Assembly (NCBI GenBank): GCA_017506865.1
Contig: JAFCMP010000096.1
Location: 186,001-250,000 of the forward strand
Source: Tribonema minus
Lineage: Eukaryota; Sar; Xanthophyceae; Tribonematales; Tribonemataceae
Direction: 5' to 3'
DNA: 64,000 bases
Position 1 is the stretch's first letter, and each line of letters opens with the position of its first letter. Shown piece by piece: positions 150-59,500 of the stretch. Made by a program: the position numbers and the translations under genes. Below the pieces are notes generated by a model, which was given only the letters and a program-made list of their open reading frames with translations, was not told the DNA's origin and did no database searches.

Positions 150-690
150 CACCTGCCCCCTGAGCTTGGGGGCCCAACCACATGCTCCCCTACACGGCAT
201 TATTGCGTGCCGCGCGCGCACTCGACCTTCGCCACGCAGCAGCAGCGGCGGCGCGCGCTCTCCGCGACGCGCAGCGTCTGCGACGCCCCAATGACAACAC
301 CGCCGGCAGCACTCGGCCTCACCTGCTCTTGGGGCTCGGGTTCAAAGCGCAAGTTCTCACACGCGCCGCGCGTGAACGCCTTGAGGCGCCGCGCGATGGC
401 TTTGACGGCAGCAACGAGTACCGTCATAACCGTCACAACAGCCAACCACACTCATCCTCGGTGATGCCAACAACAATGATGACAACGTCAGTGCTCGCCC
501 TCACCTGCCCCTTCAGCTTGAGGTCGAACCGCACGTTCCCCCACACGTTGCGCGCCTCCGTTATCTCTACCTGGGCCGCCTCAAGTCGCTGCACGATGGC
601 CAAGATCGCAGCAACGACTACACAAGTAGAGCAACTCAACCCACATAATGACAACAACGACAATGATAACAACAGTGCTCGTACTCACCT
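150..690 (-). repeat. Decayed tandem copies of the exon-3 donor edge (ghost exons)
   Basis: The 3' end of the exon ending at 689 (residues like FDPKLKGQ followed by a gtgag donor) is seen again three times further into the intron. Donor-like sites fall at 688-687 (real), 503-502, 322-321 and 152-151, so the spacing is 185, 181 and 170 bp. The translated copies read LKLKGQ, PEPQEQ and PKLRGQ, with progressively more frame damage. Upstream parts of the exon (AIARR..EAA..EI.EAR) are also recognisable in the first copy. Confidence 0.75.
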
Positions 691-3537
691 GCCCCTTGAG
701 CTTGGGGTCGAACCGCATGTTCTCCTTCACGCCGCGCGCCTCCATTATCTCCACCTTGGCAGCCTCGAAGCGCCGCGCGATGGCCTTAATAGCGCTGTCC
801 TCGCGGCCCTTCTCACGCGCCGTCATAAGCTTCTCCTTGTCCTCCTCCGTCATTAGCGGCTTGACGTCCATGGGCATCTCCCACCGCGCCTTGCAGGGGG
901 GGGGGAAGGGGGCGGGGGGGAGGGGGGGGGGGGGGGGGGGGGAGCAAGTACACACACTGTGACTTGAGACTCAGACCTGCTTCGCACGTATGCTGCGCAG
1001 CAGACCGCGCTGGCGCCATTCGTGCATCACCATCAGTGCTCGGCGGCATGTGCAACCGTTTCCCATCAGCAACACATGTGCCGCTCTTGATCATGCATAT
1101 GTACGTCTCCCACACTGAAAGTGCGCTATGCCATCAAAGCGCCGTGGCGCCGGCGCCTGGCGGCGCCGCGCCGCTCCCTGCGCATACGGCCCATCCTCGA
1201 TCGCCCATCACAGCGCCGATGCTACCTTCGGTCCACCTCGCACGAGACACGGCCACACGCGCGCCATCGCCGCAACCGCTCCAATGATAGTGACGCGTGT
1301 GCAACCGCTTCTCGTCAACATGCACTGCTCCCGACCACGTGTACATGCATACACCCTCTAACACTGCGAGGGCGCTGCGCTGCGCCATCACAGGCGCCAT
1401 CCATGGCAACGGCACCTGGTGGACGCGCACGCACATACCTGCTCCGCGCCGCCGTCGTTGCCCGGCGGCGCGCCGCTGTTCTCCGCGCGCACAGCTCATC
1501 CTCCAGCACACGCCTGGCACCACAGCGACAATACTACCTTCAGTCCTACCTGCACAAGACACGGCTGCAGCGCGCCGCGCCGCGCGATCCCCCCCCCCGC
1601 CCGCATGCGCATGCACACAAACGTCCTCTAAAATTGCAGGTGCGCTACGCATGCCATCAAAGCGCCTCGGTGGCGATGGCGCCTGGCGGAGGCGGCGCAC
1701 CTGCTCCGCGCCGCCATCGTTGCCCGGCGGCGCGCCGCCGTTCTCCGCGCACCACTCGTCCTTGATCACCTCCAGCAGCGAGCGCGACGGCGTCGTGATG
1801 TGCTGGACGCGCACGCTGTGCGTGAGCTCCGGGCAGCGCGCGAGGTGCAGGCGCAGCGACTGCTGCACGCTGCGGCTGACGCCAATGTACTGCAGCGCGG
1901 GCGTCGCGTCGTACACGGCGTACACGCTCGCCTTGACGCCGCGCGCCGCGCCGACGTCGCTCACGAGGCCCTGCGCGCGGCGACGGCGGCGGCGGCAGCG
2001 GAGGGAGGTAGCGAGCCTGAAGTTAAAAGCAGAGGCACAAAGCTGGAGTGGCAGCAACGAGGTACAAAGCTGAAGTGGCAGTACAGAGTGAAGTGGTAGC
2101 GGCAGGGGGGGCGCGCGCACGCAATTTCAATCGGCGGCAGAGGTGAACCTTGGGTCGAAGTAGCGGCGGTGGCGGAGTGTACTGCGACTGTGTGCCGTGC
2201 GCGTTGCGTTGCGCGGCGCGGGGTGTGGCGTGCGGCAGCGCACACGCGGGTGCCGCTGGCCGCTCTGCGCAGAGTCAACACGTCATCAACCAGCACATCG
2301 CCTGCGGCGGAGCGCTGGTGAAGCGGGAACTGAGGCTCATTTGGCAGCGTCGTCCGCATGCTTTTGCTTGCAGCAAATTGATGCTGCAGCGTATGGGACG
2401 CTGAGCTCTGAGCTGCAAATCTCGTCGTCAGTGTTTGGTGGCAATACCAGTGAGTCTCGTCGTCAGTGTTTGGTGGCAATGCCGGTGAACCTTGATGCCG
2501 TATCAGTCTGTGTGGAGGGCCACGGTGCTGCAAGAAGGCCGCAGCACGGGAGCGCCTGGCATGCATACGTCATGTGCCACGGCACTCTGCTGAGAGCGGC
2601 GCTCGGCGCACACCACGTTGTACAGGTTAGCAGCGATGAGCAAAAACATAACAGTAGATGTCAGCACAGCTTTGGCGCCATCTAACCAAGTGGCGACGCA
2701 GCGCCTGAGGAATCAGTGCGACGCCTGAAATAGAATGGTTGGGGGCATGAAGGGCTCACGAAATGGAATTCATTCCGTCGCTATCAGCGTAGCAAATCAT
2801 TTGCCGATCACAACAGGATGCGCACACCTGCATATGAGTTCTGATTCACAAGACACTTTAAAGTGGGCAGTAGCACCAAGCAATGTTCTTTCTGGGCCCG
2901 GACGTCAACTACAACTTGGCAGTCACACCGAACATGTGCAGTGAACATCGCCACGCAGTGCAAATTGCACGGCGCGCGGCTTGCTGACCCTGTCGCACAG
3001 CGGCAAACTAATTCAGCTTTGTCCCGCTATAGATGTGCCTCCGACCGAGCAACAGTGCGCCCTGCCCGGACCACAGGCTCGCGACTTGCACATGTGACAC
3101 CCTGTTCGCAGGTCACACGTCGTCGTACGCTGCTGCTGCTGCTGGCTGGAACACTTGACCTATGCTGCCTACGGTTCCTTGAAATGCATACATGCATGGA
3201 GTGAGTACGCGTTGCACATGCATGCTCAAAAGCTCACCTCCTCGTTGAGGTAGGGTATCATGGGCAGGCTGGACAGCGGGTCCACAGCGGTGTCTCCCCG
3301 GCTCCGCTTAGCCGACTGAGCCGCATCCGCTCTCCGCTTGGCCTCGTAGGCCGCCTCCTTCAGCTTCAGCTGCTGCTTTACGTAGTCGGCGTCCGCGTCT
3401 AGGTTAGATCTAGCCTTGACATGCTGGACGGTGCTGCTCTGCAGGATCCGCGAATGGTGCCGCTGCTGTGGCAGCAGGGCTGAAGCAAATCCCTGCGCCA
3501 CGCCCAGCACCGCAACAATGGGGAGCACAGACTTCAT
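689..3537 (-). CDS. Plastid-targeted GIY-YIG domain protein, 5' three exons (runs off left edge)
   Basis: I join three minus-strand exons, all in phase 0: 3537-3238, 1970-1701 and 889-689. The ATG at 3537 opens a signal peptide (MKSVLPIVAVLGVAQGFASA, then LLPQQ), a type used for complex plastids. A charged linker follows (residues about 40-100). Exon 2 holds the GIY-YIG domain: the VYAVYD and LQYIGVSRS strands, then a conserved ENGGAPPGNDGG stretch. This layout resembles the N-terminal nuclease-like domain of plant plastid glutaredoxin S16; no glutaredoxin domain is seen because the gene continues past base 1. Exon 3 is Lys/Glu-rich and ends KLKGQ at a GTGAGT donor. Introns are 1267 and 811 bp. 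Known: the GIY-YIG fold is a nuclease fold. Inferred: the joining of the exons, from matching phase, order and homology. Nuclease activity is not established. Confidence 0.72.
1122..1740 (-). repeat. About 260-bp tandem repeat carrying ghost copies of the GIY-YIG exon donor edge
   Basis: Three units begin near 1122, 1378 and 1640. Each contains a version of the stretch GTTGCCCGGCGGCGCGCCGC (encoding APPGND on the minus strand) followed, in minus-strand sense, by a donor-like site and the same intronic flank containing TGCCATCAAAGCGCC. The unit ending near 1740 is the functional exon edge (donor at 1700-1699). The other two lie inside the intron and are frame-broken. Confidence 0.75.
2421..2482. 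repeat. Short direct repeat in intron 1 of the GIY-YIG gene
   Basis: A segment of about 25 bp containing CGTCGTCAGTGTTTGGTGGC occurs twice, 35 bp apart (about 2421-2447 and 2456-2482). It lies inside the 1267-bp first intron and encodes nothing recognisable. Confidence 0.7.
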
Positions 3538-4237
3538 GCTGCAACTTGTATGAATGAAAAAAGATCTCTCTGCAGGCCGCCGAGATGCGACTTGAAGTTG
3601 CATACATAGGCGCTTTGCACATGCGTGAAGTTCAGTGGTGCTTGAAGTAAGTGCGGGGGTGTGTGGAAGGTAGGGCTTAGGTACCGATGCACGTGCATTC
3701 GTGAGCCTTGGCCTGGTAGGGGGACCAGGAGCGGTTCAGGATTGTTGCTGTGGACCACAAGGCTGTGATCGGATCAATCATAGCTCGAAGCGGCGTTGAT
3801 GCAGACGCCTACAGCATTCAATGTACTTTTATTATATTTACACTTGTGGCTGTGGAAATGCCATGTTGTAGGTGTGTCGCCTTGTTCTCACTCTTGGATG
3901 TAGCATGCAAAGCTTGCACGCCACACCCCGCCCCCCACATCACCCCCAACAAAGCACCCGCAAGCGACTGTCCCCCACATGCTAGCAGGGATACCAAACA
4001 AAGCTACAAGACTCTCCCCCCACAGACAGACCCGTCTTAGGGCCACCCAGCTCCACGCAGACTCCATCTCAAAGTTTTCATGCAGGCCAAGGTCACCATA
4101 ATGGGCCCTGAACTGGAGATTCAATGTACTTTTTATTAATTCTCGCTCAGGGCGCGAAAAAGCCCAGATGATTGGCATCTAGCTGTAAGGAATCTACATG
4201 TCGTATGACAGTCTGAAAGTGTCGCAACGACAACCAC
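3538..4237. other. Intergenic, promoter side of the GIY-YIG gene
   Basis: No gene is supported here. The part next to 3537 should hold the promoter of the minus-strand GIY-YIG gene; no clear TATA box stands out. C-rich tracts and short A/T-rich stretches occur near 3820-3840 and 4120-4140. Confidence 0.5.
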
Positions 4238-10648: not shown

Positions 10649-10680
<32 letters not shown>

Positions 10681-11686: not shown

Positions 11687-11733
<47 letters not shown>

Positions 11734-20305: not shown

Positions 20306-23300
20306 CGCATGGCTGCTGGTGTTTGACCTCAGCAGCGTGTTATGCTTGTTGCATCGTCTCTGATCCTGCTCCTCGACCAAGATCGGTTTGGCCGAGTACT
20401 CTGGTAGCCTGCCACCAACCCGCCCTTTATCAACACCCACTTGCACACTGGCCAGCATCGTCGCCGCCGACCGAGCACATCTCCTGCTGTTGGAGATTGC
20501 ATGCACAGTGCTTGCATCCGTAGAACATCAGCATGACAAATGTTACACCCGCTGAATCCGTGTGATGGGTGTGTTGCTGGTGTTGGATTGAGATGGGGTT
20601 GGTGCGCTCGTGCAGTTTCACAGGCTGTGAGGTTGTCTTCAGTCGTTGGCAACGTCTCCGAATGGTCTGTCAACAATTCTGAGCGAGTCAGGCGTGCTTT
20701 GTGCTCTCTCATCACCCTGTAGAAAAAGATCAGGCTGCTGCTGCTGGGACCCGGAGAATCGGGGAAGTCCACAATCTTCCGGCAAATGAAGCTGCTATAT
20801 GGGGAGATCACGGAGGACGAAAGGAAGTCAATGGTACGTTCATCGCCCGCGCATTGCGTATGTGTAGTAGATTCACACTGCGACGCATCACGCTCCATCG
20901 TCGACCGCTTCTGAGAGGACTTATGCTGCAAAAAATGGCCACTGCTTGCTACTGCTGCTGATGCTGATGCACCAGTGCTCAGGCGCCGTGCGGCCGCGCA
21001 TCAGCGTTGTGACTGCCACAAGTCATCGGACGAGTTATTCTGATGACTTCTTTGAGCACTGACACGTAGAACAGGGGCGGCGTCACTCTGCCCTCACACA
21101 AGCGCTTGTTGCCAGCAAGCCTTTGTAGTCGCACCAATTGACCCTGCCCCGCACGCGTCGACCAGGGGCCGTAACCGTGCGCCGCTGATCAGCACGCACG
21201 TGCACGTGAAGTACGTGCGCCTGCTATATTATACTGCCGAGTCAGAGTCAAGTCAGCCGGCAGCTCATGTAGGTAGGGCACGTAGGCCGCCGCCTGGTCC
21301 GTGCCCCCCTGTGACATCAGCGCGGCTGTCCATCTGCTGGTCAGCGCCGCAGCGAGCACAGTCGCAGCTGCAGCAGCCGACACAACGTACTAATGGTCTG
21401 TGAAGAGTCATGCAGGCAGTGCAATATTCGAAGCGCAACGGCGCGCGCGCGGCGGCCGCTGCATGTGCAGCAGTGCTCTCAGCGCCGTGGTAACGGCTTT
21501 TGCGCCGGAAGCTCGCGTAGGCGCGCGTGCATCGCAGTGCGTGCTCTGAGGCTGCGGCTGCAGCACTTGCACAGCAGCGCTTGGTACGCTGTTTGTGCGT
21601 GCAGTCATCCGCTGACCGAGCGACAGCGCTCAGCACTGCAGCAGTTTCGCTGAGGCCGCCTTCTATAGGGACCAACAGTGCCATTCAACACGGGTCGGGT
21701 GTTGCCGCATTGAGCCTGCGCCATTCATCGTCACCAGTTCTGCGCCTTTTGATATGTAAGGGCCCCTGCCCAGTTGCGTTTGTCCTTATCTCGTGGCAAC
21801 GGTCAGGTCACTTTCGTCTAACGCTGGCGTGGAAGCATTGCCGCGCATTACTTACTTGGTGCATGCACGCGGAGCGCTCGCACGCGCTCGCCTCCGTGCC
21901 TGGCTTGCCATAGCTTGTACACCTTGACGTTGCATATAATTACGTATATGTAGTAGAATACACAGCAAGGCGTGTACATAGTGGAGTATATGGCAAGGCA
22001 TGCGCATCAGTCACGCAGGCGCAGCCGGGCCAAGGTCTACCTGTATGACAGCTGCGTAAACTCGCGGCCGCTGCCATGCACGTGGCAACTGCTCACGCCC
22101 TTTGTTTGCAGGTACAGTGCTCAGCGCTGCCTACATGTGCTCGTGTTGTCAGCGCGGCGCTGATTCAGCGCTGCCCCAGCGCTCAAACTTAGGGTTTGGG
22201 TTGACTCAATCCTAGGCCATCCCAAGTGTCGGTGGGTGACGCATGGGGGGGGGGGGGGGGGGGACATTCGCAGTCTGTTATTGTGCTGGCCGCCTGGCCA
22301 AAAGTGCAGAAGAGGCAGTGTCCGCCAATCTGCACACCTGTCAATCGCTCACACGCGCGCGCCGTCTCACGCATACACACCTGGCTGGTTTCTGCCTGCG
22401 CGAGCGCACAGGTTGACGCCGACGTGTTGAGCCCATTTTCTAGCCCTACCCCTTAAGAGCCTCGTAACCGGCACGCTTTGCCTGCTTCTCACAGCAGCGC
22501 GCGTGCCCTGCCCTTGCAAGAACGCTGCCGACTCTGCTGGCGTACGTGCTCACACGACGCGCGGCAGCAGCGCGCGCTGCCGCCGCTTAGCGTGCCGCTT
22601 GCTGCCTCGCTGCACAAGTGCTCACCCAGTATGACCGCGCCGCGCCGCTGCCGCCGCCGCCGCCGCGCGCAGACGCCCGTGGTGTACGCCAACATCGTCT
22701 CCACCATGAAGATCCTCATCAAGCAGTGCCACCTCTTTGGGTACGGCGAAGAGATAGAGGTGAGTCACCTGTGGCGGTACCATGCATCGTCTTGACCATG
22801 AAGATCCTCATCAAGCAGTGTGACGTCTTTGGGTACAGCGAAGAGATAGAGGTGAGTCCCCTGTTGCGGTAACGTGCACAGCGCCGTACGCTATGTCTAC
22901 TGTAGTGTTTGCTCACAGGTGCTTGTGGCCACCTGCGATCTTCAATTACATCACCGCCCCCCTATGACGAGCGCTCTTGAAGATAGCGGATCGGGACGGA
23001 GGCTGCGCAACCAGCTGCGTGCGGTGCATTTGTGCGCTAGCCGCTTTCTTGCGAGTGGCGAAGCTGGACTGTACCACTATCTTTCTAGAACATGCACCCG
23101 CGCACATCAGGCCCACTGCAGGACCAGAGCAGCGCTGATTCTGCAACGCTGCGAGCACACGGCACCGGTGGACTACGCATGTACTGCTCGGTGGACACTT
23201 TTCTGAATTACACGTGTACTGCTTGAGGCACATACTTGTATACATCCGCCAGCTCACATTATACCCCGCATCTGTCGTCGCAGGATCAGACCAGCGCTGA

Positions 23301-26300
23301 GACGCTGACGTACTGCGAGGACACGGCGCCGGTGGACGCACTCTGAACCACACGTGTATTGCTTGAAACACCGTTTTTTATAGAACACACGGATACTCAC
23401 GGATGCTCACATCATACCGACGCCTGCGCTTCTGTCATCGCAGGACCAGACGAGCGCTGAGATGCTGACGTACTGCGAGGACACGGCGCCGGTGGACGCG
23501 GAGCTGGGCGCGGCTGTCAAGGCCGTGTGGGCAGACGCTGCCGTCCAGAAGACGTGGTTCCGGCGCAACGAGTATCAGGTGAGCAGCAGCGCTCAGACGG
23601 GGACAGTAGGAGGGGATGGCAGGCACGAATGGTAGGGGGGCGCGGCGGACAGGCGTGTGTGTGGGGGGGGGGGGGATGCTGCCATTCAGAAGACGTCGTT
23701 CCAGGTGCGCAGCAACGCTCAGCAGCAGCAATGCTCAGACAGGGATGGTGGGGGGGTGCGGCAGACAGCTGTGTGCGTGTGTGGGCAGACGCTGCCGTGC
23801 AGAAGACCTGTTCCGGCGCAACAAGCATCAGGTGCGCAGCAACGCTTAACAGCTGCAGTACTCAGACAGGGGGTGGTAGGAGGGGACGGCAGACAGGGGT
23901 GTGTGTGTGTGTGGGGGGGGGGGGGGGATGCTGCCATGCGGATGACGTGACGCCGGCGCGGCAGGTCTGAGGCAAGCAGCACGGGCAGCAGCAGGGTGCG
24001 CAGCCTCGGGGGGCTGCAGCAGCGCTCAGAATGGGGTGGGTGGGTGCGGCACGACGGCTCGCGCACGCCAGCCGCACGGACAAGGAGGTGGCATTCCAGC
24101 CAACCCGGGCACGCCTTGCTCGCGTCACAATGACGCGTGGACGCAGGCGCTGCCAAATTCATCAGCTGATCGTTGCCTCGGCTGCGCATCATCCCCATCT
24201 CCTCCCCTCCAGCCCCCCCCCCTCCCCGACTGTCACCGCAGACACCGCAGCGACGTGCAACCCACCTGGCGGAGTTGGCCGAGTCTTGCTGTGAAAGAAG
24301 GCAGCTGCGTCTTGGCAAGCCTCGGCTCACCTGCACACCTTTTGCCCGGTGTCGCCTTGGCTCTTCTGAGACCCCTCCCCCCCATGCAACCCTTCTCTGT
24401 ATTCCATGTCCAAACGCCTATTGACAAGGACACATTTTCTGTCGGACCACACGCGCAGATTGTGTAGAGCATGTCGCACTACCTGGACAGCATAGACCGC
24501 ATCTCCGCGCCGGACTATCAGCGCCATTGACCCCCTTGCCCCTGATCACGCGCAGATTGTGGAGCACACGCTGCACCTCCGCGCTGAACTATCCATTGAA
24601 CCCCCCACCCCCACCCCTTCGCATTGACCCCGGCTCCCCCCCCCCCCCCCCCCCAAACGCTGAGCAGATCGTGGAGAGCATGTCATACTACCTGGACAGC
24701 ATAGACCGCATCTCCGCGCCGGACTACGTGGCGGACATCAACGACGTGCTGCACGTGCGCATCCGCTCGAGCGGCGTCGTCGTCGACCGCTACACGATCG
24801 ACGGCTTCACGTTTGAGATGTACGACGTCGGCGGCCAGCGCAACGAGCGCAAGAAGTGGATACACTGCTTCGACAACGTCACGGCGATCATCTACGTCGC
24901 CGCGCTGTCCGAGTACGACCAGGGGCTGTACGAGGACGCGCAGACCAACAGGTGAGCGCTGCTGCAGCTGCTGTGGTGCGCTGCTGCTGCGGTGCGTTGC
25001 TGCTGCTGCGGTGCGTTGCTGCTGCAGCGGTGCGTTGCTGCTGCAGCGGTGCGTTGCTGCTGCTGCAGTTCGCTGCTGCTGCTGCCGGTGCGCTGCTGCT
25101 GCTGCTGCTGCTGCTGCTGCGGTGCGCTGCCGCTGCTGCGGTGCGCTGCCGCTGCTGCGGTGCGCTGCCGCTGCTGCGGTGCGCTGCTGCTGCTGCAGTG
25201 TGGGTGCTGAGCGGTGATGCATTGAACGGTCCTGACTGTCACGCGTCGCACCACTCAGCGCCGCCTGTGCGCGCGGTTGACTGCAGCCACCGGACGACCT
25301 CAATGAGATGTGGAAACGGCGCGTGGCTCCGGGAGGCGTGCATGAGAACGGCCTTTGCAGTGCACGCCTTGCACCCGTATGTTACGGCATGTGTGCGGTA
25401 GGCGATCACTCCATGACTTGCTTACGCAAGAGTGAGTCGACTCGAATTGCCCCCCCCCACGATATCACGCTGCGCTGCGCAGGACGGTCGCCAGATGTAC
25501 TCGAGTATATGTGTGCATACATACAAGGTACCTAGAAGAGAATTACTTCAAGGTATACATGTGTGCGTACGTACTGCGCACTTGCATACAGGGGGCAACA
25601 CAACAACCTTATCCCCCTCCCTGCTCTTCAGCCATCTCGCTGTTCCATGAAATCACGATCGACCCGTTAGCGCAGGATTGTCGCCAAATACACTCAAGTA
25701 TGCATGCACGTGCGTACAGCGCACACTACAACAGCAGTAATGCCAACAACTACCTACCCCCCCCCCCCCCCCCCCCCCGCGCCTGCGCAGAATGGTGGAG
25801 GCCATCTCGCTGTTCCGCGAAATCGCGCACAACCCGTTCTTCATTCACTCGAGCCTCATCCTCTTCCTCAACAAGAAGGACCTCTTTGAGGCAAAAGTGA
25901 AGGTGAGGGCTGCTGACCCGCACCTGCCAAAGCGCTGCTGTCGACGCCAAGTTTCAAACAATGACACTACCGCAACTGTGCCCGCAACGCCTCCGTGCGT
26001 GTTCAAGCATGCATCGTCACATACTCGCGCCCTCGGCTGCGATTTCAAGAAGGGAGGCTGCGTTGCACTTCAGGCGCGGGACAGCGGCAGCACATGAGGA
26101 GACGTGCCTCTTGCAGCATCGCTCATACTTGAAGTTACTTGAAGCCTGCTTTCTCACCGCCCTCCGGCACACGCGCGTAGCCGCCGCTGCGCGTTTTGCC
26201 GCGTACCCCTGCTGGCCACTGGCGCCGCTCACTCTGTTGCACTCTCTATGAAGCAGCAGCAGCAGCACCTCCAAGGCCACGACCCGACCCTCTGCATAGA

Positions 26301-27930: not shown

Positions 27931-27938
27931 ATGCTCTT

Positions 27939-33600: not shown

Positions 33601-35304
33601 TCGACGAGGTGCGCGTGGAGTTCGGCGCCATCAGGTGAGCCAGCCGCGCGCGGCGCACGCGCGGACGTGCATGAAGTTGAAGTTATAGTTGTGACGAGGT
33701 GCGCGTGGAGTTCGGCGCCCATCAGGTGAGCCAGCCGCGCGGCGCGACGGGCATGAAGTTGAAGTAATAGTTGAAGTGTCATATGGCTGGTACAGCTGCA
33801 CTGGTGGGCGTGTGGCAGCCTGCGGGCGCGCTCTCGCGGGTCTTCCCGTCGGTGGCAGCGGCTCAGGAGGGGTTTGCTGTGCGTGTGCCTTTTTCCTTGC
33901 CACATGGGGCTTGGTATGCATCTGTCAGGCTCCGGTCACTCCACCGAGTCTTCCCGTCTTTGGCAGCGGCTGGTGAGAGGATCGCTGTGCGCATCATTTT
34001 CTCCTTGCCATATGTGGCATGCGGCGGGAGCGGTTGCCCTCTGATGGCGGCAACTGGAAACAGATCGGCATCGAGCGCAGGCTTCTGCAGTTGAGCAAAA
34101 GCGCATCATGTCCAGGGACGGCATGTGACCAGTAATGCTGCTCGTCAGTTCCTTTCGGTTGCAATTCCTCTTGTTCAGGGCTTGGTTTTCCTGTCTCGCA
34201 GTATCTGGCAACAAAATGGTCACAATGGCCAATGGCCGGGGTAGCAGTTGAGGGCTGGTGGCGGTCCGCCACAGCAGTGGCATGTATTTGCGAAGACCGC
34301 AGACGGCGCGCCTGCGCCTTGCACGTCAAATTCAGTTCTCACAGATTCCGCCGTCATCTGGCGAGCGGACCGCACGCACACTTCCCAAGCCTGCACTTGG
34401 GCTGCCTGACCGTCAAACTGGATGCCTCGAATCCGCGCTACTGCGGCATTGCTTGGCTGGTCGTTGCTGTGGCAGTGCTCAGTGTGCGCGGCGCGTGCGC
34501 AGGCTGCTGTGGCGCCGCTCGCTCGCACTTTCTTGCACCTCCGCGAGCACTGCACGAATGTGCCTGTACTTGTCGCCGCCCACGCCCGTTGAGGCGCGGG
34601 CACTCTGGGTGGCCATTGCGCACCTTGCCGTGTGCAAGAGAGAGGCGCGCTTGTCAGGCGTGCGCACCACGCCCCGCTGTTGTATGACCCAGTTTCATCA
34701 TCGCCCGCGTCTCATCACTCTTCTCCTGGCATGGCACTCTGCGCGCTGCGCCGACGCGTGCACTGCAGCACCGGTGCCGTCGCGCAGCGCACCCCTCCGC
34801 ATGCCATCCCCCCCCCCCCTCTCATCCCCCCCGTCTTGCTGCTCCACTCATGGTCTTGCTCCCCCTCTCTGACGCATGCGCCCCTCTCCTCATCCTCACC
34901 GTTCCTGTGTCATGGCTCCGCACGTCGCCTCTCACGCTCTCAGCGGCGTCCGATGCGCCGTACTCCATTCTTTGCAGGTCGTAGACCAAAATTTCATGTT
35001 TAAACAACTGACATTAAAGGACAAATCAAGACTTTGACGGCAGATGTTGGGACCAATATATAGAAATGGTTACGTAGACTGTGCCTGGTGACTGCATTCT
35101 AATGAATGCCGCGCCGCCGCCCGTAGCAGCGCGGACGCGATGGATCGCATCGTCGCGCGCCCTGCGGTGCTGGATTGCGCCGGCGCGCTGTGCCTCTCGG
35201 ACGCGGACGTCAAGGCGAGCGTCCTCGCGGTGCGCGGCGCCGTGGACTCCGCATGGGGCCTCCCCGCGGAACCGCTATGCCAGCTGCTGCGCCAGGTCAC
35301 GTAG
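30654..35304 (+). CDS. Maf/HAM1-like nucleoside triphosphate pyrophosphatase with long N-terminal extension
   Basis: Four exons, 30654-30956, 31712-31902, 33302-33634 and 35130-35304, join in matching phases (0, 2, 2) and encode 333 aa. The Maf domain starts near residue 126 (LPLVLGTPGTHAKAILEALG), continues with the central ALVTTAQLVCL strand and VYYTAVAVTNSETG, and ends VLDCAGALCLSDADVKASVL ... DSAWGLPAEPL, matching the family's CAGG...DSVxGLP end. Known: Maf proteins hydrolyse non-canonical or modified nucleotides. Odd points: about 125 residues of extra N-terminus including SPCSKMLWMPRKPSHPDVKV, a Gly-rich insert after LQEEE, and the usual S-x-S-P-R-R start is replaced by GTPGTHA, so catalytic competence is uncertain. 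Linking exon 1 to the Maf exons rests on phase and context. Confidence 0.75.
33603..33775 (+). repeat. Ghost copy of Maf exon 3 donor edge
   Basis: The stretch GACGAGGTGCGCGTGGAGTT...CATCAGGTGAGCCAGCCGCG, ending with ATGAAGTTGAAGT, occurs at 33603 (real donor at 33635) and again 91 bp later at about 33694. The ghost has one extra C that breaks the frame. Confidence 0.92.
33810..34030 (+). repeat. Two-copy tandem repeat in Maf intron 3
   Basis: Segments containing GGTCTTCCCGTCGGTGGCAG and GAGTCTTCCCGTCTTTGGCA, followed by similar GCTGTGCG...TCCTTGCCATATG flanks, repeat about 115-120 bp apart. Confidence 0.75.
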
Positions 35305-37754: not shown

Positions 37755-37823
<69 letters not shown>

Positions 37824-40475: not shown

Positions 40476-43400
40476 ATGGTGGCGACAGCAGCCTGGAGGC
40501 TGGCTAGCAGAGCAGCAACCCGGCAACGACCATTGGCACCATCATGGCTATGTGCCAGTGGCACCACAGCGCAGCACAACAGCAGTGGGAATAGGGACAG
40601 CCCCTATGGCGCTGCCACCCTGCTGGCGGCAGCACTGGCAGCGACCCTGTTCGGCGCACAGCAACGACAGCAGCAGCCAGCGCAATGCGAGGAGGTCCAC
40701 GTGCATACGCCCCACTACAAGGACCGCAAGGTGGAAGCGGCCGCTGCCGGTGGCGACACTTACTTCAGCAGCGACTACGATTACTTGAAGGTCATTTCCG
40801 GATCCTCCAACAGGAAGCTGGCGAAGGAAATAGCGGATCTGCTTGGCGTGGGACTGGGCGATTGCGAGCTGGGAAGGTATGCCGATGGGGAGATCAGCAT
40901 CAATCTGGGGGAGCAAGTACGAGGGAAGGTGAGAGTGCCGCCGGGCGTCCCGCGCGCGCTGATCTCACTTCAAGCATTCGCCCTTGTATTCAAAAGCGCT
41001 CAGAGTAAGCACTGCGCAGCACTGCATATGGCGTTTTCTAGTGCGCGTCTGTGGTGTCAATGCGTTGAGACCCGGAGAGCGATATGTCACTGAGCAGTGC
41101 CACCAGTGAGCACATGGGCTGTGCGCTGTCTGTGCTTCCCAACTCGATGCAGGCACCATGAGCCTCAGCTGCCGTTTGCCGGCACGCGCTTGAGCGACGC
41201 GCGCGCAGTGCACATTTCGCGCGCGCGGTATACTCAGTGCCCAATTCTCACTGTCCATCAAACAGTAGGCGCTGAGCACGCCCGAGCTGACCAGCGGTGG
41301 GGGGCGTTGCACTCCCGACGCGGCGCGATGGTAGCTGGCTCCGCAAATAAGCGTCTGAAAAAAGTGGGGTGAACTCGTGCAGGAGTGCAGTGTCTAAGCA
41401 GTGCACGACGTGGGGTGACGGAAGTCGGCACACTGGTCTCACTGTGGCGTGCCGGCATGCGCGTTTACATACCGGAATGCGGTGCGCACCGTGCAAGCCT
41501 TCCATGCGACTCTCTGACCGCGAACTGAATTTATGCCCTTGGCACGTACGTATACATGGCAACAGCAAGCGCTGCTGCCTCGCTGCAGACTTTGTGCGCA
41601 GATTGTCCATGTGCACAGCGTCGCTGCGCGCGCCGTGAGTACCAGCCCAGCAGTACACCTGTACTCTACGAGTTCAGTTGAAGCATTGTCAAATCGGCGC
41701 TCTGCTCTGCAAGCGCCAGTCCGCTACCGTTCGATGAGCGTTGCCAGTGCGCAGACAGTGGCGACAGTGCCGCTGCGCATGAGCTGCGCACCGGCATGCT
41801 GAACAGCGACACAGCGTAGCTCATGACGCAGCAGGTTACCTGTCCTCATGAAGCCCAATTGAAGCTGACTGCCCCAGAATGCGCCATGTATATTCAGCTC
41901 TGCAGGATGGCCAACGGCTGACATCTCAGATGCAGTCCCTTGGCTGATGCACGACGATGACCGTAGCGCAACCCTGAGGGGTGAGCACTCACGTGCGCGT
42001 GGGAGGTGCCCGCGATGTGCAGCCGCTGGCACGTAAGCCTAACCCTAATGACACCCTCTCATACCAGGCAGTGCCTACAGTCAACTCGCCTTGCCATCCA
42101 CGGGGCTTTACGCACCTGTATTTGACTCATACCCCAGCCCCAACGCCTGTTGTCACATGCCCCTCAACTTTGCCGCTCGCATACAAAACGCAGCCGGCCG
42201 TGCGACTGACCACTATTCCCGTCTATCGTTGCCGCCGCCTCCGCCGCCGCTGCCGTCGCTGCCTCCGCTGCCGCCGCCGCTGCTGCCACCGCCACCGCCG
42301 CCACCACTGCCGCTGCTGCCGCCTCTGCCACCGCCGCCGCCGCTGCCGCCGCTGCTGCCGCCGCCGCCGCTGCTGCCGCCGCCGCCGCCTCCGCTGCCGC
42401 CGCCACCGCTGCCGCCGCCGCCGCAGGACGTGTACGTGATGCAGAGCGGGCAGCGCCCCGTCAACGACCACCTCATGGAGCTGCTGCTGCTCGTCTCGAC
42501 GGTGCAGCGCGCGAGCGCCAAGCGCGTCACCGCCGTCATCCCGTACTTCCCGTACAAGCACCACCGCCGCGGCGTGCCCATCAGCACGGGGCTCAACTCG
42601 CGCTTCCTGCTGAGCGCGGCCGCGGACTTTGGGCACTGCCTCGAGGTGCGACGCGGTGCGCGTGTTTTTCGCGGCGTGGCACGTCGCCACGGGCATTCAT
42701 TTTCTCGATGTGTGGGTTTCTTTCGTGCAGCATCGTTCGCTGTGTGTGCGGATTCCGTGCCGTGCGGCATTGGGCACTGCCTTGAGGTGCACGCCTCTTT
42801 CGCGCGCGCGACACGCCGCCTTGGACATCTGTTTCTTGATGTGTGGAGTTTATAGTCGTGCGGCGCGCGCGCTCGCCCCAGCGCTCGGTGCGCCTGTCGC
42901 GCGCGCTTGCGCGGGCCTTCGCACTGCTTTCTTTGCACTGTCTCATTCGGTTACGCCATTGTGGAGGCGCAATGCGACGCGTCGTCGACCGATGCAGCTG
43001 TCGTCCGCGCTCCGCTCGCGTCTGCCGCTGAGTGGGGCGGGGTAGTACTTCGGCCGCCGCATTTTAAAGCCAGCCTGTCAAAAAATGCAATCTCCCACAG
43101 CACGCATGCAAGCACCTTGCGGCGCATTGCCTCAGTAGCAGCCCCGTCGCGATCGCGCTTACTTCCACACACGCAGTTGCACTTCTGCGGAAAGCGGCGG
43201 CAACTTCAACTTTAACTGCCGCAGGTGTTGGGCATCGACCGCATCATCGCCGTGGACCTCGAGCGCCCGGGCTCCATCGCACTTCCACACACGCAGTTGC
43301 ACTTCTGCGGAAGCGACTTCTCACACGCCCTCCCCCCCTCCCCCCCCCCTGCCCTCCCCCACTTCAACTTCAACTCCAACTTCAACTGCCGCAGGTGATG

Positions 43401-44335
43401 GGCGTGGACCGCATCATCGCCGTGGACCTCGAGCGCCCGGGCTCGTCCAACGAGTCCAACTTCTTCTCGCCCGGCGTCCCCGTGGAGACGCTCCTCACGA
43501 CCAACCTCTTTGCGCACCACATCGCGCGCGCGGCGTTCCCCCCTGCGCACGGCGGCGACATCCTCGTCGTCTCCCCGTCCAGCGCGCTTATGAAGAAGTC
43601 GGTGGGGTTCGCGACGGTGCTCGCGCGCGCGCTGCCGAACGCGGACGTGCGCGTGACGACGTTCGTCCACTCGACGGCGCGCGCGGGGCCCGTGGACATC
43701 TCCACCAACGAGCTCATCGCGAGCGGCGACGTGCGCGGCCGCGACGTCGTCCTCGTCGACGAGCTCATAGGTGAGCGCTGCTGCTGCTGCCGCCGCTGCT
43801 GCTGCTGCCGCTGCTTGGCGACTGACTTGCATCTGCTGCCGCTGCATTTGCTGCTGCTACTGCTGCCGCCGCTGCCAGGTGATTGACTAGCTGCTGCTGC
43901 CGCTGTCGCATTTACCGCTGCCGCTCCTGCTGCTGCTGCCGCGGCTGCGGTATTTGTTGCTGCCGCTGCTGCTGCTGCCACTGCCGCTGTCGCCGCCGCT
44001 GCCGCGCGACTGACGCCGCCGCTGCCGCTGCCGCCGCCGCCGCAGACACGGGCGGCACGCTCGCGACGCTCGCGCGCAAGCTCAAGGAGATGGGCGCGCG
44101 CGACATCTACGTCTACTCGAGCCACGCGCTCTTCAACAACGACTGCCTGGAGCTGCTAGAGCGCGCGCCCATCACGCGCGTGTACGTGTCCAACACGATT
44201 GAGCACGACCCCGCTGCGGTCGCCGCGAGCAGCAAGGTGGAGGTCGTGTCGATCGGGCCGCAGCTCGCCAAGCTGATCTACGCCGAGCACGTGCGCTCCG
44301 CGGACATCTTCAAGGAGGAGATGACGTTCGGGTGA
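40476..44335 (+). CDS. Divergent ribose-phosphate pyrophosphokinase (PRPP synthetase-like)
   Basis: Four exons, 40476-40928, 42427-42645, 43395-43770 and 44046-44335, with matching phases (0, 0, 1), give 445 aa. Residues 1-70 look like an organelle presequence (RLASRAATRQR) followed by a hydrophobic segment (AATLLAAALAATLFGA). The catalytic body then begins at YLKVISGSSNRKLAKEIADL and includes RYADGEISINL, RPVNDHLMELLLLVSTVQRA and RVTAVIPYFPY. The PRPP loop is VDELIDTGGTL. Known function: making PRPP from ribose 5-phosphate and ATP. Several usual active-site motifs are changed: YARQD is YKHHRR, DLH is DLE, and PDAGG is PSSAL. It may be a distinct class or a regulatory, non-catalytic homologue. 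The family's usual length is about 310-330 aa. Confidence 0.88.
42768..42800 (+). repeat. Ghost copy of PRPP synthetase exon 2 donor edge
   Basis: TTGGGCACTGCCTTGAGGTG at about 42768 repeats the exon 2 end TTTGGGCACTGCCTCGAGGT, 140 bp downstream of the real donor at 42646. The flanking TTTC..GATGTGTGG.GTTT sequence is repeated too (about 42702 and 42830). Confidence 0.88.
43156..43394 (+). repeat. Ghost copy of PRPP synthetase exon 3 acceptor edge
   Basis: The acceptor and first 50 or so bases of exon 3 (CTGCCGCAGGTGTTGGGCAT ... GCGCCCGGGCTC) occur at 43225, 170 bp before the real exon at 43395. The preceding intron part CTTCCACACACGCAGTTGCA is also present in both units (43161 and 43281). 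After GGCTC the ghost jumps back into intron sequence. Confidence 0.94.
43771..44045 (+). repeat. GCT/GCC trinucleotide intron
   Basis: All of PRPP synthetase intron 3 (275 bp) is a degenerate GCTGCTGCCGCC tract. The 3' 200 bp of intron 1 (42225-42426) has the same composition. Confidence 0.85.
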
Positions 44336-48700: not shown

Positions 48701-51700
48701 CCGCCGCCGCCGCCGCCGCTCTTGCCGCCGCCACCGCCGCCGCCGCCACCGCCGCTGCCGCCGCCGCCGCACGCCGCGGGCAGCGGCTCCCTGCTGAACA
48801 GCGCCCTCGCGCGCAGCTGGCCGAAGCGCGTTCGCACCGCGCCCGCGTGCGTGTAATTGGTCCCCGAGCCCGGCGCCGCGGGGACGAGCGCCGCCGCCGC
48901 CGCGGCAAAGTCCACGCGCGCCTCGAGGCGCCGCGCGAGCGCCGCGACGGCGCGCGGCGCGGGCGGCAGCGCGTCGATGGCGGGCGGCGGCGGCGGCGGC
49001 GCGCCGGTGGCGGCGGCGGCGGCGGGCGGCGGAGTTGCGTCGCTGTGGCGCGTGAGGCCGGCGGTGCGGCGCAGGTAGTCGACGAGCGTCGCGCTGAAGT
49101 CGTTCGCGGGCGGCGGGGCACTGCGGGGGGACAAGGGAGTCGGGGGGGGAGGGGGTGACACACAAGGGGGGGCATTTGGGGTGTGATGGGGATGGGGGGG
49201 CCATGTGAACGGCTCGTACCCTCTGGTCGTTGAGCTTCTAGGGAGCATTGCGCGTCCAACGGGTACGTACGCACGGCAGTGCGGCTCGTGGCGCATGATG
49301 GCAGACTCGAGATGCCAGCCGCGGGGGGGGCGCCCGCAGCCCCCCGCAGCGCGCGCGCCGCCGCCGCCGCCGTCGCGACGCGCACCGCCGCGAGGGGCGC
49401 TGCTGGCGGCGAAAGCCCCCCGCGGCGCAGCAGCACTCACTGACGTCAGCGCTCGGCGCAGGTGCGGCGTCCGCGTGATGCTGATACCGAAACCTAACTG
49501 CAGTGTACACACGTGTCCGCTGGCGGCGCGGCGGGGCGCGCTGGTGACCGACTGCGCGATTGCCGTGTGTGCTGTGCACTCCGGATGGCAAGGCTGGCGT
49601 GATGACACTCGGCGCTGAGCACCGAGGCCGTGAGGCCCAGGGCGTCTACGCAGGCCAGGAGCAGACCAATACATAGGATGTGCCTGAGAGTGGCAGTGCT
49701 CTGCAAGGTGAGTGCTGCCGCCGCACTGCTCCCGCAAGCCCTGATCCTAGCCCTGACTCCAACCCTATCCCACACTTGCGCGCACGCACTCCAAAGCGAA
49801 TCGAAGCGCACGCCTGCGCGCGCTGCAGGCCCCACGGCACGGGTGTAGACTACCGGTCGTGACTGTCGCTGACGTGGTCGATGCACGCGGCGGCCAGGCG
49901 ATTCTGAGCAGCGGCGCTGTAACAGCTATGCAAACGTGGCCAGGGGCTGTGAGCGGAGGAAGCTTTGCTGTCGTTTGCGCACACACGTAGCGGGCAGATC
50001 GAGCGCTGCCACTGCTCACATTAGCTGAGGGTGGCACTTTGCCTACGAGCTGAGCGCTGCCGTGGCTTGCGTACATGCCTGCGTACCTGCCAGCGGGGAC
50101 GAGCGGGAACTCCTGCCACCACACGCCCTGCACGCCGCAACAGCAGAGGACGCCACAGGCAGCGGAGCGAAAAATGAGCGCATGAATGGCGACCGCTGAT
50201 GGCGAAGGCGCCGCATGACGACGAACATGACAAATGATTGTCGTGCGGTGCCGCATTGACGCAGCTTTGACGGCACAGGCGGCCGAAAGCAAGCACTCAC
50301 AAGCCTGTGAAAGCCGTGTTGAAGCTGAAGTTTGCAGCCTTGCAAGTAGTGCGATAATCTGTCACACGCCCATGAGCCGTTCGCTACTGCATGTCGGCGT
50401 GTGCATATCGCATCCTGGACGTACGTCCGAACTTCGTGCGCACGCGGGCTGCGCAGCGCGTCACATTGTGTGTGGACCGTCGCGCGGCGTGCGCGCTCGC
50501 AGTCCGGTCCGCAGCGCAAACTTCAACAGTGACGCACCTCGCTCTTCTGGTCCCAGTCCTGCGCCTCGAAGTTGGCGGTGCACACCACCACGCGCACCCC
50601 CGTCTCAAACTCCAGTATGATCATCTTGCTGTGGTGCGTGCCTGCGAGCGGCCGCGCACGCGGCGGGCAGAGTTCACAGCTGAGGTTCACTGTTGAAGTC
50701 TGAGGTGTGGGACGAGTTGAGCGACGCGCGTACGGTGATCGCAGTCACCCACGGAGAGTGCTCGGCCAAGGCGAGTGACTCCCCCCCAAAACTTCAACTG
50801 CTGACCGCGCGTCCCACCGTGGAGAGAGTGAGGCAGACCGTCTGGCTGCGCACGCGTGTGCTTGCCACACAGCTCATGTGGAGCGTCCCCACTTGAGCTC
50901 TGCGGTATGGTACGAACCCCCTGGTGCCTCCATGGCGCCGCGTCCGCCGCCAAGAGTGCCATTGTGCGTGCTGCAGCTGGCGGCGGCGCGGCATCTTTGG
51001 GCGTCGTGGCGTGCGTGTGCAAGCTACCACACTTCACAAGCAAGTGAGTGCATGCACTGGCCCGCTGCACATGCTGCTTGCACGTGCAGACCGCCTCATC
51101 TGCACCTCGAGAGATGCGTGCACCCCAGGGCGATGCTCTGCGCGGCCGAAGCAGCTAGCCCTAACCTTTCAAGTCATCACCACTGGCTCCGCAGCGCAGG
51201 GGTACCTAGGCTAGAGGGTCTGCGACGTGCCCGCGCGCGCGCCACGCTGCGTGGACATCCTTCACAACCTAACTTCAAGTTACACATGCTGAAGCTGAGC
51301 GTCACCGCGCACCGTACGGCGGCAGCCGCAGGCCGTGCAGCGCCACGTGCGGGAACGCCTGCGCCGCGTGCCGCAGCGCCAGCGTGCTCGCGTTGTCGCC
51401 CGTTACGAACACCACGGGGGCGCCGCTCAGCAGCCGCGGGCACTCCCCCACCATCCACTCCATGTCCCATGTGTAGTTGAAGAGCATGGCGCTGGGGGAG
51501 GGGTTTACGGGGGGTGGGCGGGGGGAGGGGGGGGGGGGGGGGGGGGGGGGGCAAGGTGGATGAGAGCATGCATGTGCGCGGCGGTGTGTGAGGAAAGCTG
51601 CAGGGCTCGTTGAGCGCAGCCTGGATAAGGTCGCTGCAAGGGGCTGAGCAGCGTGCATAAGGCGCGCACACACAGCATCAGCTTCATGGGGAGCAGAGTC

Positions 51701-52304
51701 AGGTATGTGTCGCATTGACGTTGTTGGCCTGGCGAAGCGGTTGGTGTGCGAATCCGGAAGCTCAGCACGGTGAGGTGGGTACACGTAACAATCTGACCCA
51801 AAGCAGCAGGCTCTTGGTGGTCTGAGCGGGCAATTACATTAGCTTGCTCGATTGCGCTAGCGGCTCAGAAATCGTGTTGTTTGATGCGACTAGGGAGTGA
51901 CTCTGGAGATGCATCCACTGCGAAAGCTGAAGTACAAGCTTATGTACCACTTGCCTGCTCCACTGCCCGCTCATGAGCTGACCAAATGTTACAGCTCCCT
52001 CGTTGTACTTAGGGTCTATGCCACGTACAGTCGTGAGTCTCCACAGCGGCGGCCGCGATGGCGGGGGCTGCGGCTCCGCGGTCTTCTGTCGCTTGGCTGC
52101 AGGAGTCGCTTCCTCCTCGTCGCTGACCAGATCCACAGCTGCTAGAGCGGATCCCGACACTGCAGAGGGCTTCATGCTCATGATTCTGCTGCCAAAGTTC
52201 GCTCTTGTGACTACAGGCAGAGTGGCTCGACTACCGGTGATGTGCTTCGACACAAATCCTGCAGCTGATTCCAGCACCAGGCACACGCCAAGGCACCGGC
52301 GCAT
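45795..52304 (-). CDS. TDP1: Tyrosyl-DNA phosphodiesterase 1 (TDP1)
   Basis: Minus-strand exons: 52304-51955, 51491-51313, 50641-50538, 50127-50087, 49120-48482, 48120-47538 and 46435-46325; a probable last exon is 45899-45795. All phases agree (about 703 aa). TDP1 removes topoisomerase I peptides and other adducts from DNA 3' ends. Both HKN catalytic sets are present: THHSKM with CTANFE (His180, Lys182, Asn200), and PHIKSY with LTSANMS (His about 503, Lys about 505, Asn about 577). Other landmarks are [24 protein letters not shown] and [12 protein letters not shown]. The N-terminus has a possible organelle presequence before [14 protein letters not shown], a likely nuclear signal. Intron 1 is GC-AG (AG|GCAAGT). 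Long Gly/Ser inserts (about 48640-48775 and 47745-47890) interrupt the catalytic domain. The last exon rests only on phase and a weak [13 protein letters not shown] match. Confidence 0.93.
46455..46830. repeat. Three-copy tandem repeat in TDP1 intron 6
   Basis: Units of about 130-145 bp begin near 46456, 46586 and 46731. Each contains GCAGACGGGGCGGCAGCGGC-like sequence, GTGAGATGCG, CGCAACACGCGACTC and an AT-rich tail with ATACATATGCC. They lie next to exon 46435-46325. Confidence 0.8.
47017..47050 (+). repeat. Interstitial telomere-type (TTAGGG)n in TDP1 intron 6
   Basis: About 5.7 perfect TTAGGG units. Confidence 0.95.
47111..47129 (+). repeat. Interstitial telomere-type (TTAGGG)n
   Basis: About three units, 60 bp after the previous tract and in the same orientation. 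Confidence 0.92.
47421..47457 (-). repeat. Interstitial telomere-type (CCCTAA)n, opposite orientation
   Basis: About 5 units in the reverse orientation to the two preceding tracts, within the same intron and 80 bp from the exon at 48120-47538. Confidence 0.95.
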
Positions 52305-56563: not shown

Positions 56564-59500
56564 ACGCTCGCGGCGACGAACGCGGCGCTGAGCTTCCAGC
56601 TGTGCGCCTGCTGCGATGCGCGCGCGGGGATCGGCGGCCACGCCACCTGCGTGCCGTGCGCGGCGCCGCTGCTGCCGCCGCCGCTGGATCCCTGCGCGTT
56701 GCGTGAGAAGCGTAGCCATCGTGCGGCGCGGGTGAGTGATGAGCGACGCGCGGCGCATTGCCGTGTCAGCGACTGCATACCCCCAAACGCAGAGAACAGC
56801 AGCATCATAGTATACTTCAAGTAGCTCAATGCACACATACCAGCATGCAAGCACTATTTTTGCATTGAACGTCATCGTACAGTGGCGTCATTGCCCGCGG
56901 CGGCAAGCTCATATTCACAGAAGTGAATCAAAGCGGGGCTTTGTACAGACGGCTTGCACCAGCCATGTCTCGTGACCCTTCGCTTTCGTCTGCAATCTCA
57001 AGTAGAAGTATGAAAGACAATGCCGCCCACGCTATTTGTTGAGCGCTGTCAGTTTTCTACTTCAATATTGCATGCAGAAGCGTCACCAAGTGTCGTCGGG
57101 CGCTGTCAACTTCACCTTGGCAGGCAGAGCGTTACACGCATCATCGCTGTCGCTTTACCTTGGGCCGCCGCAGTGTCAGAACTTCAGAAGCATTGTTGGG
57201 CGCAGTCAACTGCACCTGGGCAGGCGAAGCAACATACTTCAAGTACATCTTCAAGCGCTGGCACTCGGCAACTTCACCTTGGCAGGTGGAGCGTCACTGG
57301 CATCACTGATGACTGAGCGCTGGTGCGTTTTCTCAACTTCACCTTGGCGGGCGGAGCGTCGCACGTGTCGTCCGGCACGTCCTCGCCCCTCTCCAGCTGC
57401 AGTATGTAGTCCACGACAGCCGCGTTCGTGAGGTCTATGCCGTGCTCCTTCGCATCGGCGATCATCTCTGGCGTTGCATTGCGCCAGTCTGCGTCGCAAT
57501 AGCGGCGGCAGAGGGATGCGGGCGGCGGACGCCTCCGATGATGAGCGCTGCTGCATGCGCTCAGCGCTGCTCAACTTCAACATTGACTTCAGATTCAAGT
57601 TCAACATTCCACCGTCTCTCACGTACTTCCGAAATACTCCTCCAAGAAATCGCTTGGCGTCTGCGATCATATCCGGCGTCGCGTTGCGCCAGTCTGCGTC
57701 GCGGCGGCGGCGGCGAAGAGATGCAGGCGGCAGCGGGCGGCTCCATGATGAGGAGCACTGCTGCACGCAGTCAGCACGATGCGCGAGGCGTGCGCCGCCG
57801 CACGTTCTCTGATCAACTTCAACACAAAGCTCAACTTCATGTTCAACATTCCACCATCTCTCAACCTCCTTCCAAAATACTCCAAGAAAGCACTTCGCGT
57901 CGGCGATCATCTCCGGCATCGTGTTGCGCCAGTCTGCGTCGCTGCGGCGGCGGCGGAGAGATGCGGGCGGCGGCAGACGGCTCCATCATGATCTCTATGC
58001 ATGCATATCTGGCACTTTTATGTATGCACTATAGTAAGTGTCTGTATGCATGTATGCACTAACAAGTGTCTATATGTCCCCACGCGCACACTGAGTTCGC
58101 CGCGAGCACTCGTGGAGCTCTTTCGCGCGCCCCAAGCGGTAGTGATCATTTCAATAGGAGCAGTCGTCGGCCTACGCCTGTAGGAAAACGCCTCGCACCA
58201 GTTTCATGTGACTTACCCGAGTAGCACCAACGCTTTTTTTTTGTTACAGGTACTTGAAGTATTTGATGAATTACCTGGCCGCTGCTGGCCCACGGAGCCG
58301 TGGTTCGGCGCGCGCTGCTGCTGCTGCTGCTGCTGCTCGGCGACCGCCTGCGCGAGCACGCCGCGCATGTTGTCGAGCGTCTCCGCAATGACGGCGGCCT
58401 TGTCCTCAGCGCCCTGCAGTTGCGGGATGGTGGTAACGTGGGTGAACAGTACGGCAGCAAATCACGCGACAATGGTGGCATACAGCGGCGAACCAGGTTT
58501 GCAATATGGAGACACTGCGTCTAGACGCATCTGACAGTCTCAGTGTGCGTGGCCTGAAGGGAAGGGGGGCCGGGGAGGGGGGCTCGCAGGACTGAGCGCA
58601 GAGAGCGCGGACGCAACAGCCACAATCAAGCAACGTGCTGCGCAGTACCAACCATGATTTCTGCCCGCTTCGGCGTGACAGCCCATCAAGCATAACTCAC
58701 GTACACGCGCAGCAAGCAGCAGCGCTCACCTCGCGCGTGGCCTCCTCCAGCTCCTTCTCCAGCTGCTCGATCGCCCCCTGCAGGTCGCGACGCGTCCGTA
58801 TTCCGCCGCCGCTGCCGCCGCCGCCGCCGCCTGCCCCACCTGCATCCTTCGCACCCACCCTTTCTGCCGTCCCCACCACCACCTCCCCCCAGCCGAACAG
58901 CCCGCTGAACGCGCCGCGCTCGCGCCGCCGCAGCGCCGCGCGCTCTGCGCGCCGCCGCCGCAGCTCGCGCGCCGCCGCCGCGCCGCCGCCGAGCGCCGCG
59001 GCGCGCGCAAGGTCGGCGACGGCGAGGTCGAGCGCGTGCGCGCCGGCGCCGGCGGACGCGAGGCGCGCCTGCGCGCGGCGGAAGTGCGCCTTGGCGGAGG
59101 TGGGGTGGGTGTGAATGGCGCGCGTGCACGCGGCGACGGCGGCGGCGTGGCGGCCGCGGCGCCCGTACGCGAGCGCGATGTTGAGGTAGCACGCCACCTT
59201 GAAGTCCCTGAGACGGGGGAAGGGGGGGGTGGGGGGTCAATGGCAGGGCCTGACTCTAACCCCTGACCCTTAGTGATGCGGAGCGCTGCGGGCGGCGGTG
59301 CGGAAGCATGGCAGCAGGAGGGCATCGCGCGAGGTGAGCGTGCGACTGCGCGGCGCGCGGCGCGGCGCGGCGCGTGCTGCAGGGGGAGAGGTATGAGCAA
59401 TCGGGATTCGGGTCGACGCCCGACCCAGTTTTCGGCCCCCGACCTGACAAACCTCGAACAGTCTCGAACCTCCAAAATCGTGACATATCAGCTCCCTTGC

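Follow-up and report, generated by a model that had tools for sequence, protein, structure and literature searches.

Exon edges in the alga Tribonema minus are found copied, together with their splice sites, into the adjoining introns. The repeats copy the exon end, the splice site and intron sequence together and in the same order, and the copies are head-to-tail neighbours inside one gene. The copy continuous with the remainder of the exon is here called real, and the others are called ghosts. Such repeats occur in many unrelated genes, they span exon–intron junctions more often than uniform placement predicts, the exon parts of ghosts are far closer to the real copy than the intron parts, and ghosts present in one paralogue may be absent from another. 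The explanation we prefer, to which we give a nearly even chance, is that local tandem duplication is general, that copies at junctions persist, and that ghost edges are re-templated by the selected exon through gene conversion.

Copies of Exon Edges in the 64-kb Window

The window, i.e., the whole stretch of 64,000 nucleotides analysed, lies on contig C96; the genome comprises 158 Mb in 554 contigs. Self-comparison of the window by blastn (E ≤ 1e-3) gave 39 direct repeat pairs, and 33 of these survive a complexity filter. Local pairs, with copies at most 536 bp apart, make up 28 of the 33; the rest are three distant simple-sequence matches and two pairs in a 3.4–3.8-kb duplication. The edges were then compared individually, a 40-bp exon part being matched against the flanking intron. 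Fourteen edges were tried and two anchors were not found, which leaves 12. Nine of these 12 have one or more ghosts that carry the edge, a proportion that is not unbiased, because the edges were picked where the sequence-only reading or the self-comparison showed them repeated. The nine cover all five genes for which that reading had claimed repeated edges and splice sites, namely the GIY-YIG, G-alpha, Maf, PRPP synthetase (PRPS) and TPR genes, so the claim stands. The copies are as follows.

1596..1750, reverse strand: GIY-YIG-like exon 1 end and donor, real copy; last exon base 1701
1330..1488, reverse strand: ghost of the GIY-YIG-like exon 1 donor edge; edge 1439, exon part 95%, 262 bp downstream in the intron
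655..785, reverse strand: GIY-YIG-like exon 2 end and donor, real copy; last exon base 689
468..601, reverse strand: ghost of the GIY-YIG-like exon 2 donor edge; edge 505, exon part 85%, 82% over 134 bp including the intron part
312..372, reverse strand: weaker ghost of the GIY-YIG-like exon 2 donor edge; 75% to 678–738, edge near 323 by eye
147..196, reverse strand: further ghost of the GIY-YIG-like exon 2 donor edge; edge 153, exon part 80%
22693..22786, forward strand: G-alpha exon 1 end and donor, real copy of a 92-bp unit; last exon base 22759
22785..22878, forward strand: ghost of the G-alpha exon 1 donor edge, directly tandem; edge 22851, exon part 90%, 89% over 94 bp
23405..23499, forward strand: G-alpha exon 2 start and acceptor, real copy; first exon base 23444
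23252..23339, forward strand: ghost of the G-alpha exon 2 acceptor edge; edge 23284, 85%, exon part 93%
23118–23173, forward strand: older copy of the G-alpha exon 2 acceptor edge
23525..23696, forward strand: G-alpha exon 2 end, donor and intron start, real copy; last exon base 23578
23779..23948, forward strand: ghost of the G-alpha exon 2 donor edge; edge 23831, exon part 88%, 76% over 180 columns
23702–23911, forward strand: additional match to the G-alpha exon 2 donor region, 70%
24664..24726, forward strand: G-alpha exon 3 start and acceptor, real copy; first exon base 24668
24455..24517, forward strand: ghost of the G-alpha exon 3 acceptor edge; edge 24459, exon part 90%, 94% over 63 bp
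25631..25668, forward strand: partial copy of the G-alpha exon 4 start (25801–25838); 84%, edge not kept
33603..33691, forward strand: Maf-like exon end, donor and intron start, real copy; last exon base 33634
33693..33773, forward strand: ghost of the Maf-like donor edge, tandem; edge 33725, 87%, exon part 85%
43371..43444, forward strand: PRPP synthetase exon start and acceptor, real copy; first exon base 43395
43201..43274, forward strand: ghost of the PRPP synthetase acceptor edge; edge 43225, 93%, exon part 93%
43161–43196, forward strand: PRPP synthetase intron part, matching 43281–43315 at 97%
57448..57558, reverse strand: 'TPR' exon start and acceptor, real copy; first exon base 57488
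57653..57991, reverse strand: two ghosts of the 'TPR' acceptor edge with intron parts; edges 57693 (exon part 82%) and 57933 (exon part 85%)

The young G-alpha unit at 22693–22878 matches in both its exon and its intron parts. An edge-bearing ghost is absent at three of the 12 edges: the G-alpha exon 4 acceptor, where a partial copy lacks the edge, and the PRPS acceptor at 42427 and the 'TPR' donor at 57343, where short echoes can be seen by eye below the score threshold. No complex local repeat appears in the self-comparison at the TDP1 gene, recognised by Pfam in three ORFs (47457–51838), so that the claim of repeats in almost every multi-exon gene is already too strong within the window.

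The sequence-only reading also stressed that donor ghosts always lie downstream and acceptor ghosts upstream. This rule carries no evidential weight, since the copy adjoining the rest of the exon is the real one by definition and all others fall on the intron side. As to the gene names, G-alpha is backed by its profile. The exon at 23444–23578 covers G-alpha profile positions 104–136 and the next exon begins at position 136; this run-on from exon 2 into exon 3 supports the exon boundaries. Three names are less secure: the GIY-YIG assignment comes from a weak Pfam hit that misses the cut-off (E 0.053), the Maf Pfam score is below its cut-off, and the 'TPR' exon at 57346–57486 matched no TPR model, giving a weak RraB hit (E 0.13). 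TPR models match elsewhere, at 58697–59236.

Other repeats were noted in the window. A further local tandem repeat lies at 62632–62868 (86%, unit about 122 bp), where there are long open frames and no gene was assigned. Long GCN trinucleotide arrays occur in introns of the PRPS and G-alpha genes (42231–42424, 43777–44043 and 24956–25200), two of them reaching near an exon. Telomere-like TTAGGG and CCTAAC arrays of opposite orientation are found at 47017–47050 and 47421–47456.

Frequency and Placement of Repeats Beyond the Window

The sample beyond the window consisted of kinesin, CCT/TCP-1 and LHC genes of the same genome, located via exon matches. The chlorophyll-binding (LHC) family has 92 exon-level matches in the genome; the loci used are the best 30 of these 92 and the best 30 of 132 kinesin matches, together with four hand-picked CCT-type regions, and thus the overall gene sample is non-random. 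For one LHC protein that was compared, the nearest PDB entries are 9jj8 and 8z11, which we take to be haptophyte photosystem structures. Splice sites were set from reading frame, profile continuity and GT/AG signals. Exon pairs lying outside a single fetched stretch, or with profile gaps of more than 18 residues, were skipped and are uncounted. Of 51 introns modelled, 50 are distinct, one duplicate having been removed (L026 copies L025). Six of the 51 models are off the expected join by seven residues or more, and none of these six is junction-spanning.

A junction-spanning repeat was found in 17 of the 50 introns and in 10 of the 28 genes, donor-edge repeats in 11 introns, acceptor-edge repeats in 10, and any local repeat in 23. 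The duplication of junction-spanning segments in many unrelated genes therefore extends beyond the window, at a frequency well short of almost every multi-exon gene. The sample is small, 50 introns from three gene families, and a single gene, L074, contributes eight of its 21 junction arrays. No local repeats were found when seven GIY-YIG loci were compared. The spacing of the local tandem duplications is roughly 90 to 370 bp.

Of 100 exon edges of 45 bp from these genes, 17 are copied in their own intron, against one of 739 comparisons with unrelated introns, a control that also supports the repeats of the window genes. Own-intron copies are rare for exon interiors (1/100) and less frequent for mid-intron pieces (9/188). 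The preference for junctions that the sequence-only reading implied is borne out: 21 of 31 arrays span a junction, where uniform placement with at most 60 bp of exon overlap predicts 6.9, and none of 20,000 draws was as high. The expectation is 9.9 if 100 bp of exon overlap is allowed and 4.9 at 40 bp. When the richest gene is dropped, 13 of 22 arrays span a junction (5.2 expected, p 2e-4), and with the three richest genes dropped, 8 of 16 do so (3.7 expected, p 0.011).

Two alternatives bear on this excess. The first is that transcription, splicing or chromatin at exon–intron borders provokes duplication there. The strength of the excess agrees with such junction-targeted mutation, as does the finding that arrays with a best identity of at least 85% are junction-spanning in 15 of 15 cases (4.0 expected); moreover, among the 10 arrays that span no junction, five have an end within 14 bp of one, in one case exactly at an acceptor. 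In L072 (intron donor C279:44172), a tandem copy of the final ~80 bp of the intron stops exactly at the acceptor AG, with no exon sequence. Near-identical tandem repeats also occur away from visible exon edges, however, in L061 (97%, in a long intron) and L038 (97%), and we know of no mechanism for duplication targeted to junctions. We consider targeting unlikely.

The second alternative holds that tandem duplication is followed by plain decay with no conversion, that a constrained exon partner makes ghosts easier to detect, and that the junction excess is mostly this detection effect. When placement is allowed such a bias, however, 12 of 19 arrays still span a junction against 4.7 expected (p 1.5e-4). 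The density of non-spanning arrays, seven in 49.6 kb of introns with 150-bp flanks, is close to the background of eight in 40 kb (four arbitrary 10-kb stretches); thus, the excess consists of the 18 arrays that are junction-spanning at the threshold of the density test.

Identity of Exon and Intron Parts

Ghosts were compared in two parts, a 45-bp exon part and a 45-bp intron part past the splice signal. In 33 real–ghost pairs the exon part is 87.8% identical and the intron part 62.6%. The same holds among ghosts (26 pairs), with 86.1% for the exon part and 59.1% for the intron part; unrelated intron pieces are 50.7% identical. Restricting the intron part to sequence within the unit gives 0.878 versus 0.612, the exon part being higher in 32 of 33 pairs and in all 17 arrays. 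The identities of the two parts show no clear co-variation (Spearman 0.24, p 0.17, and 0.00). Along the unit, identity drops from about 0.9 on the exon side of the junction to 0.71–0.75 in the 25 bp next to it on the intron side, and to about 0.55 at greater distance. In five of nine arrays with at least two ghosts, the nearest ghost is not the sole most similar one.

Location of ghosts through their exon part favours exon identity, and the neutral simulation was therefore conditioned on the exon part. For the eight pairs with an exon part of at least 95%, the neutral model expects an intron part of 91% (5th percentile 73%), and 65% is seen. For the 11 pairs at 88–95%, it expects 82%, and 66% is seen. 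For the 14 of 33 pairs below 88%, 0.690 is expected and 0.646 seen, so there is no conflict. Thirteen of the 33 pairs fall below the neutral 5th percentile. Thus, the older ghosts agree with duplication and subsequent uniform decay, and the most similar ones do not. The sequence-only reading held that inner copies decayed; this agrees with the pairs below 88%, which lie near neutrality, and not with the step between exon and intron parts.

The main rival, and a serious one, is that intron DNA next to junctions, being pyrimidine-rich and repeat-rich, diverges fast by slippage, so that plain tandem duplication and decay would suffice. In its favour, the introns are rich in C-runs and GCN repeats, the older pairs agree with the neutral model, and the per-site level of changes private to ghosts resembles that of silent changes in the real exon. 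The identity just past the junction, which is above chance, indicates that intron parts were copied too and is a further point in its favour. The step nevertheless persists in the 13 pairs whose introns are complex (exon part 0.847, intron part 0.594), a split made with the laxer complexity threshold since no pair passed the stricter one. A noncoding control is provided by the 3.2-kb direct duplication 13212–16389/17037–20300, which aligns over 3274 columns at about 92% identity, with 18 gap events. There, a segment of at most 70% identity lies beside one of at least 95% in none of 898 cases, and beside less similar segments in 18–20%. With these points against it, we hold fast intron divergence without conversion to be somewhat unlikely.

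Copies more alike than their flanks allow are the mark of concerted evolution, and the ghosts show this, with a reservation for the older pairs. The sequence comparisons suggest gene conversion with the exon as the putative template. No conversion tract was caught directly in the arrays compared. Against refreshing, several ghosts lack silent changes that their exon has acquired recently. Synonymous changes present in the real exon are missing from its ghosts in L010 and L065, which indicates that these ghosts were not refreshed recently.

Splice Signals and Selection in Ghosts

The possibility that ghosts are functional, as decoy splice sites, as the spare splice sites proposed by the sequence-only reading, or as selected alternative exon ends, would draw on the good conservation of their exon parts and on the splice dinucleotides, which are retained in 27 of 33 ghosts. 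Of the 14 donor ghosts, 10 keep GT, and of the 19 acceptor ghosts, 17 keep AG; two more have GC. This retention would, however, be about what ~12% divergence alone leaves. Ghost-private changes fall at the three codon positions as 21/20/31, with no significant bias (p 0.21), in contrast to those found in the real exon alone (1/0/7, p 0.005). When all real-versus-ghost differences are pooled (45/43/88), a lean to third positions appears, which we ascribe, short of proof, to silent change in the real exon. The exon parts of the 33 ghosts carry 10 indel events, and use of a ghost site would put intron sequence into the mRNA. Ghosts are thus probably without function, and a functional role is in our judgment very unlikely. 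Whole-exon tandem copies with the frame kept were not seen among these repeats; edges only, typically tens of bp, are copied. Gene predictors should be warned that one exon edge can match several sites within one intron.

Paralogues and the Origin of Intron Sequence

Comparison of paralogues shows ghosts coming or going. The same LHC intron is 660 bp long without ghosts in L015 and 966 bp long with two acceptor ghosts in L016, so that the proposed lengthening of introns has the support of one paralogue pair. Repeat- or ghost-bearing introns of L018, L028 and L049 are missing from their paralogues L008, L019 and L042, respectively. Absence of whole introns from paralogues speaks for two further candidate origins, introner elements and the birth of introns by duplication of exon sequence containing AGGT. 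Both were rejected. A single cross-match (45 bp, 84%) was found between different introns among the 50, with no shared intron family, and intron birth by exon duplication predicts arrays linking donor to acceptor, whereas none of 31 arrays joins a donor to an acceptor junction. We give these origins next to no credence. The same applies to an assembly artefact, of which no supporting sign was found: the copies differ by 5–40%, lie in many genes and contigs, and are gene-specific in content.

CAACTT/AAGTTG-type octamers are over-represented in the introns, with CTTCAACT found in 7 of 50 against 0.38 expected. They occur in introns of L008–L075, often within ghost units, and in the window at, e.g., 33674, 43202, 43366 and 60839. 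The idea that introns pair end to end through complementary AAGTTG/CAACTT arrays was tried and rejected, as the octamers are present in 12 of 17 ghost introns versus 15 of 33 others (p 0.14). The idea is weakened further by the CAACTT-type copies, which have no clear acceptor lean (37/64).

Relation to Known Systems

In the literature searched (titles and abstract openings, with few subscription papers covered), no report of a pervasive junction-centred pattern was found. The nearest documented event among these sources appears to be that of the potato RdRp gene, where, in outline, a tandem duplication across an intron–exon boundary made a new intron (PMC4974935). As in the alga, the duplicated segment reaches over a splice junction and brings splice signals with it. 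The potato case, as outlined there, concerns an additional intron in one gene, whereas the alga has arrays inside existing introns of many genes, with exon parts kept similar. The Rogers/Gao–Lynch/Hellsten model, as summarised in the same source, derives an intron from a duplicated AGGT-containing exon. It shares with the alga local tandem duplication as a source of intron sequence and splice sites, and it differs in that the surroundings of donor and acceptor would be mutual copies, which is seen in 0 of 31 algal arrays.

In Cryptococcus, repeat expansion is described as making introns (PMC2395259). The likeness lies in slippage, unequal exchange or conversion among repeats altering gene structure; the account of Cryptococcus has whole introns multiplied within coding repeats, whereas the alga copies partial exon edges into introns. 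Introners, in the outline given in PMC9860276, likewise represent a widespread process adding intron sequence, but as dispersed similar copies, whereas in the alga similarity is local to each gene.

A Model for Junction Copies and Its Implications

The preferred reading, re-templating of ghost edges by the exon, can be set out as follows. Short local tandem duplications of whole units would arise throughout the genome as a first step. A duplication that spans a junction would add a partial exon edge, a splice site and some intron sequence, so that the intron lengthens and the outer copy continues coding. Unlike intron-only copies, a junction-spanning array would have one partner held by selection, the real exon edge. 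Local recombination, by gene conversion or repeated re-copying, may then refresh the exon part of a ghost from the exon, and the intron parts would drift apart as the exon parts stay recognisable. Refreshing of exon parts would yield both the identity step at the junction and the persistence of such arrays, and persistence would yield their excess.

A bolder form, possible although doubtful, is that exon edges serve as undying templates, from which recombination stamps fresh exon ends and splice sites into neighbouring introns genome-wide. If this is true, introns would grow from their own junctions, carrying a renewed stock of splice-competent edges. Intron lengthening and the gain of new splice sites without transposons are poorly observed. 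The alga offers junction duplications of differing ages, in which exon and intron parts act as mutual internal controls, and with such a genome one could measure the rate of duplication, conversion and the reuse of splice sites.
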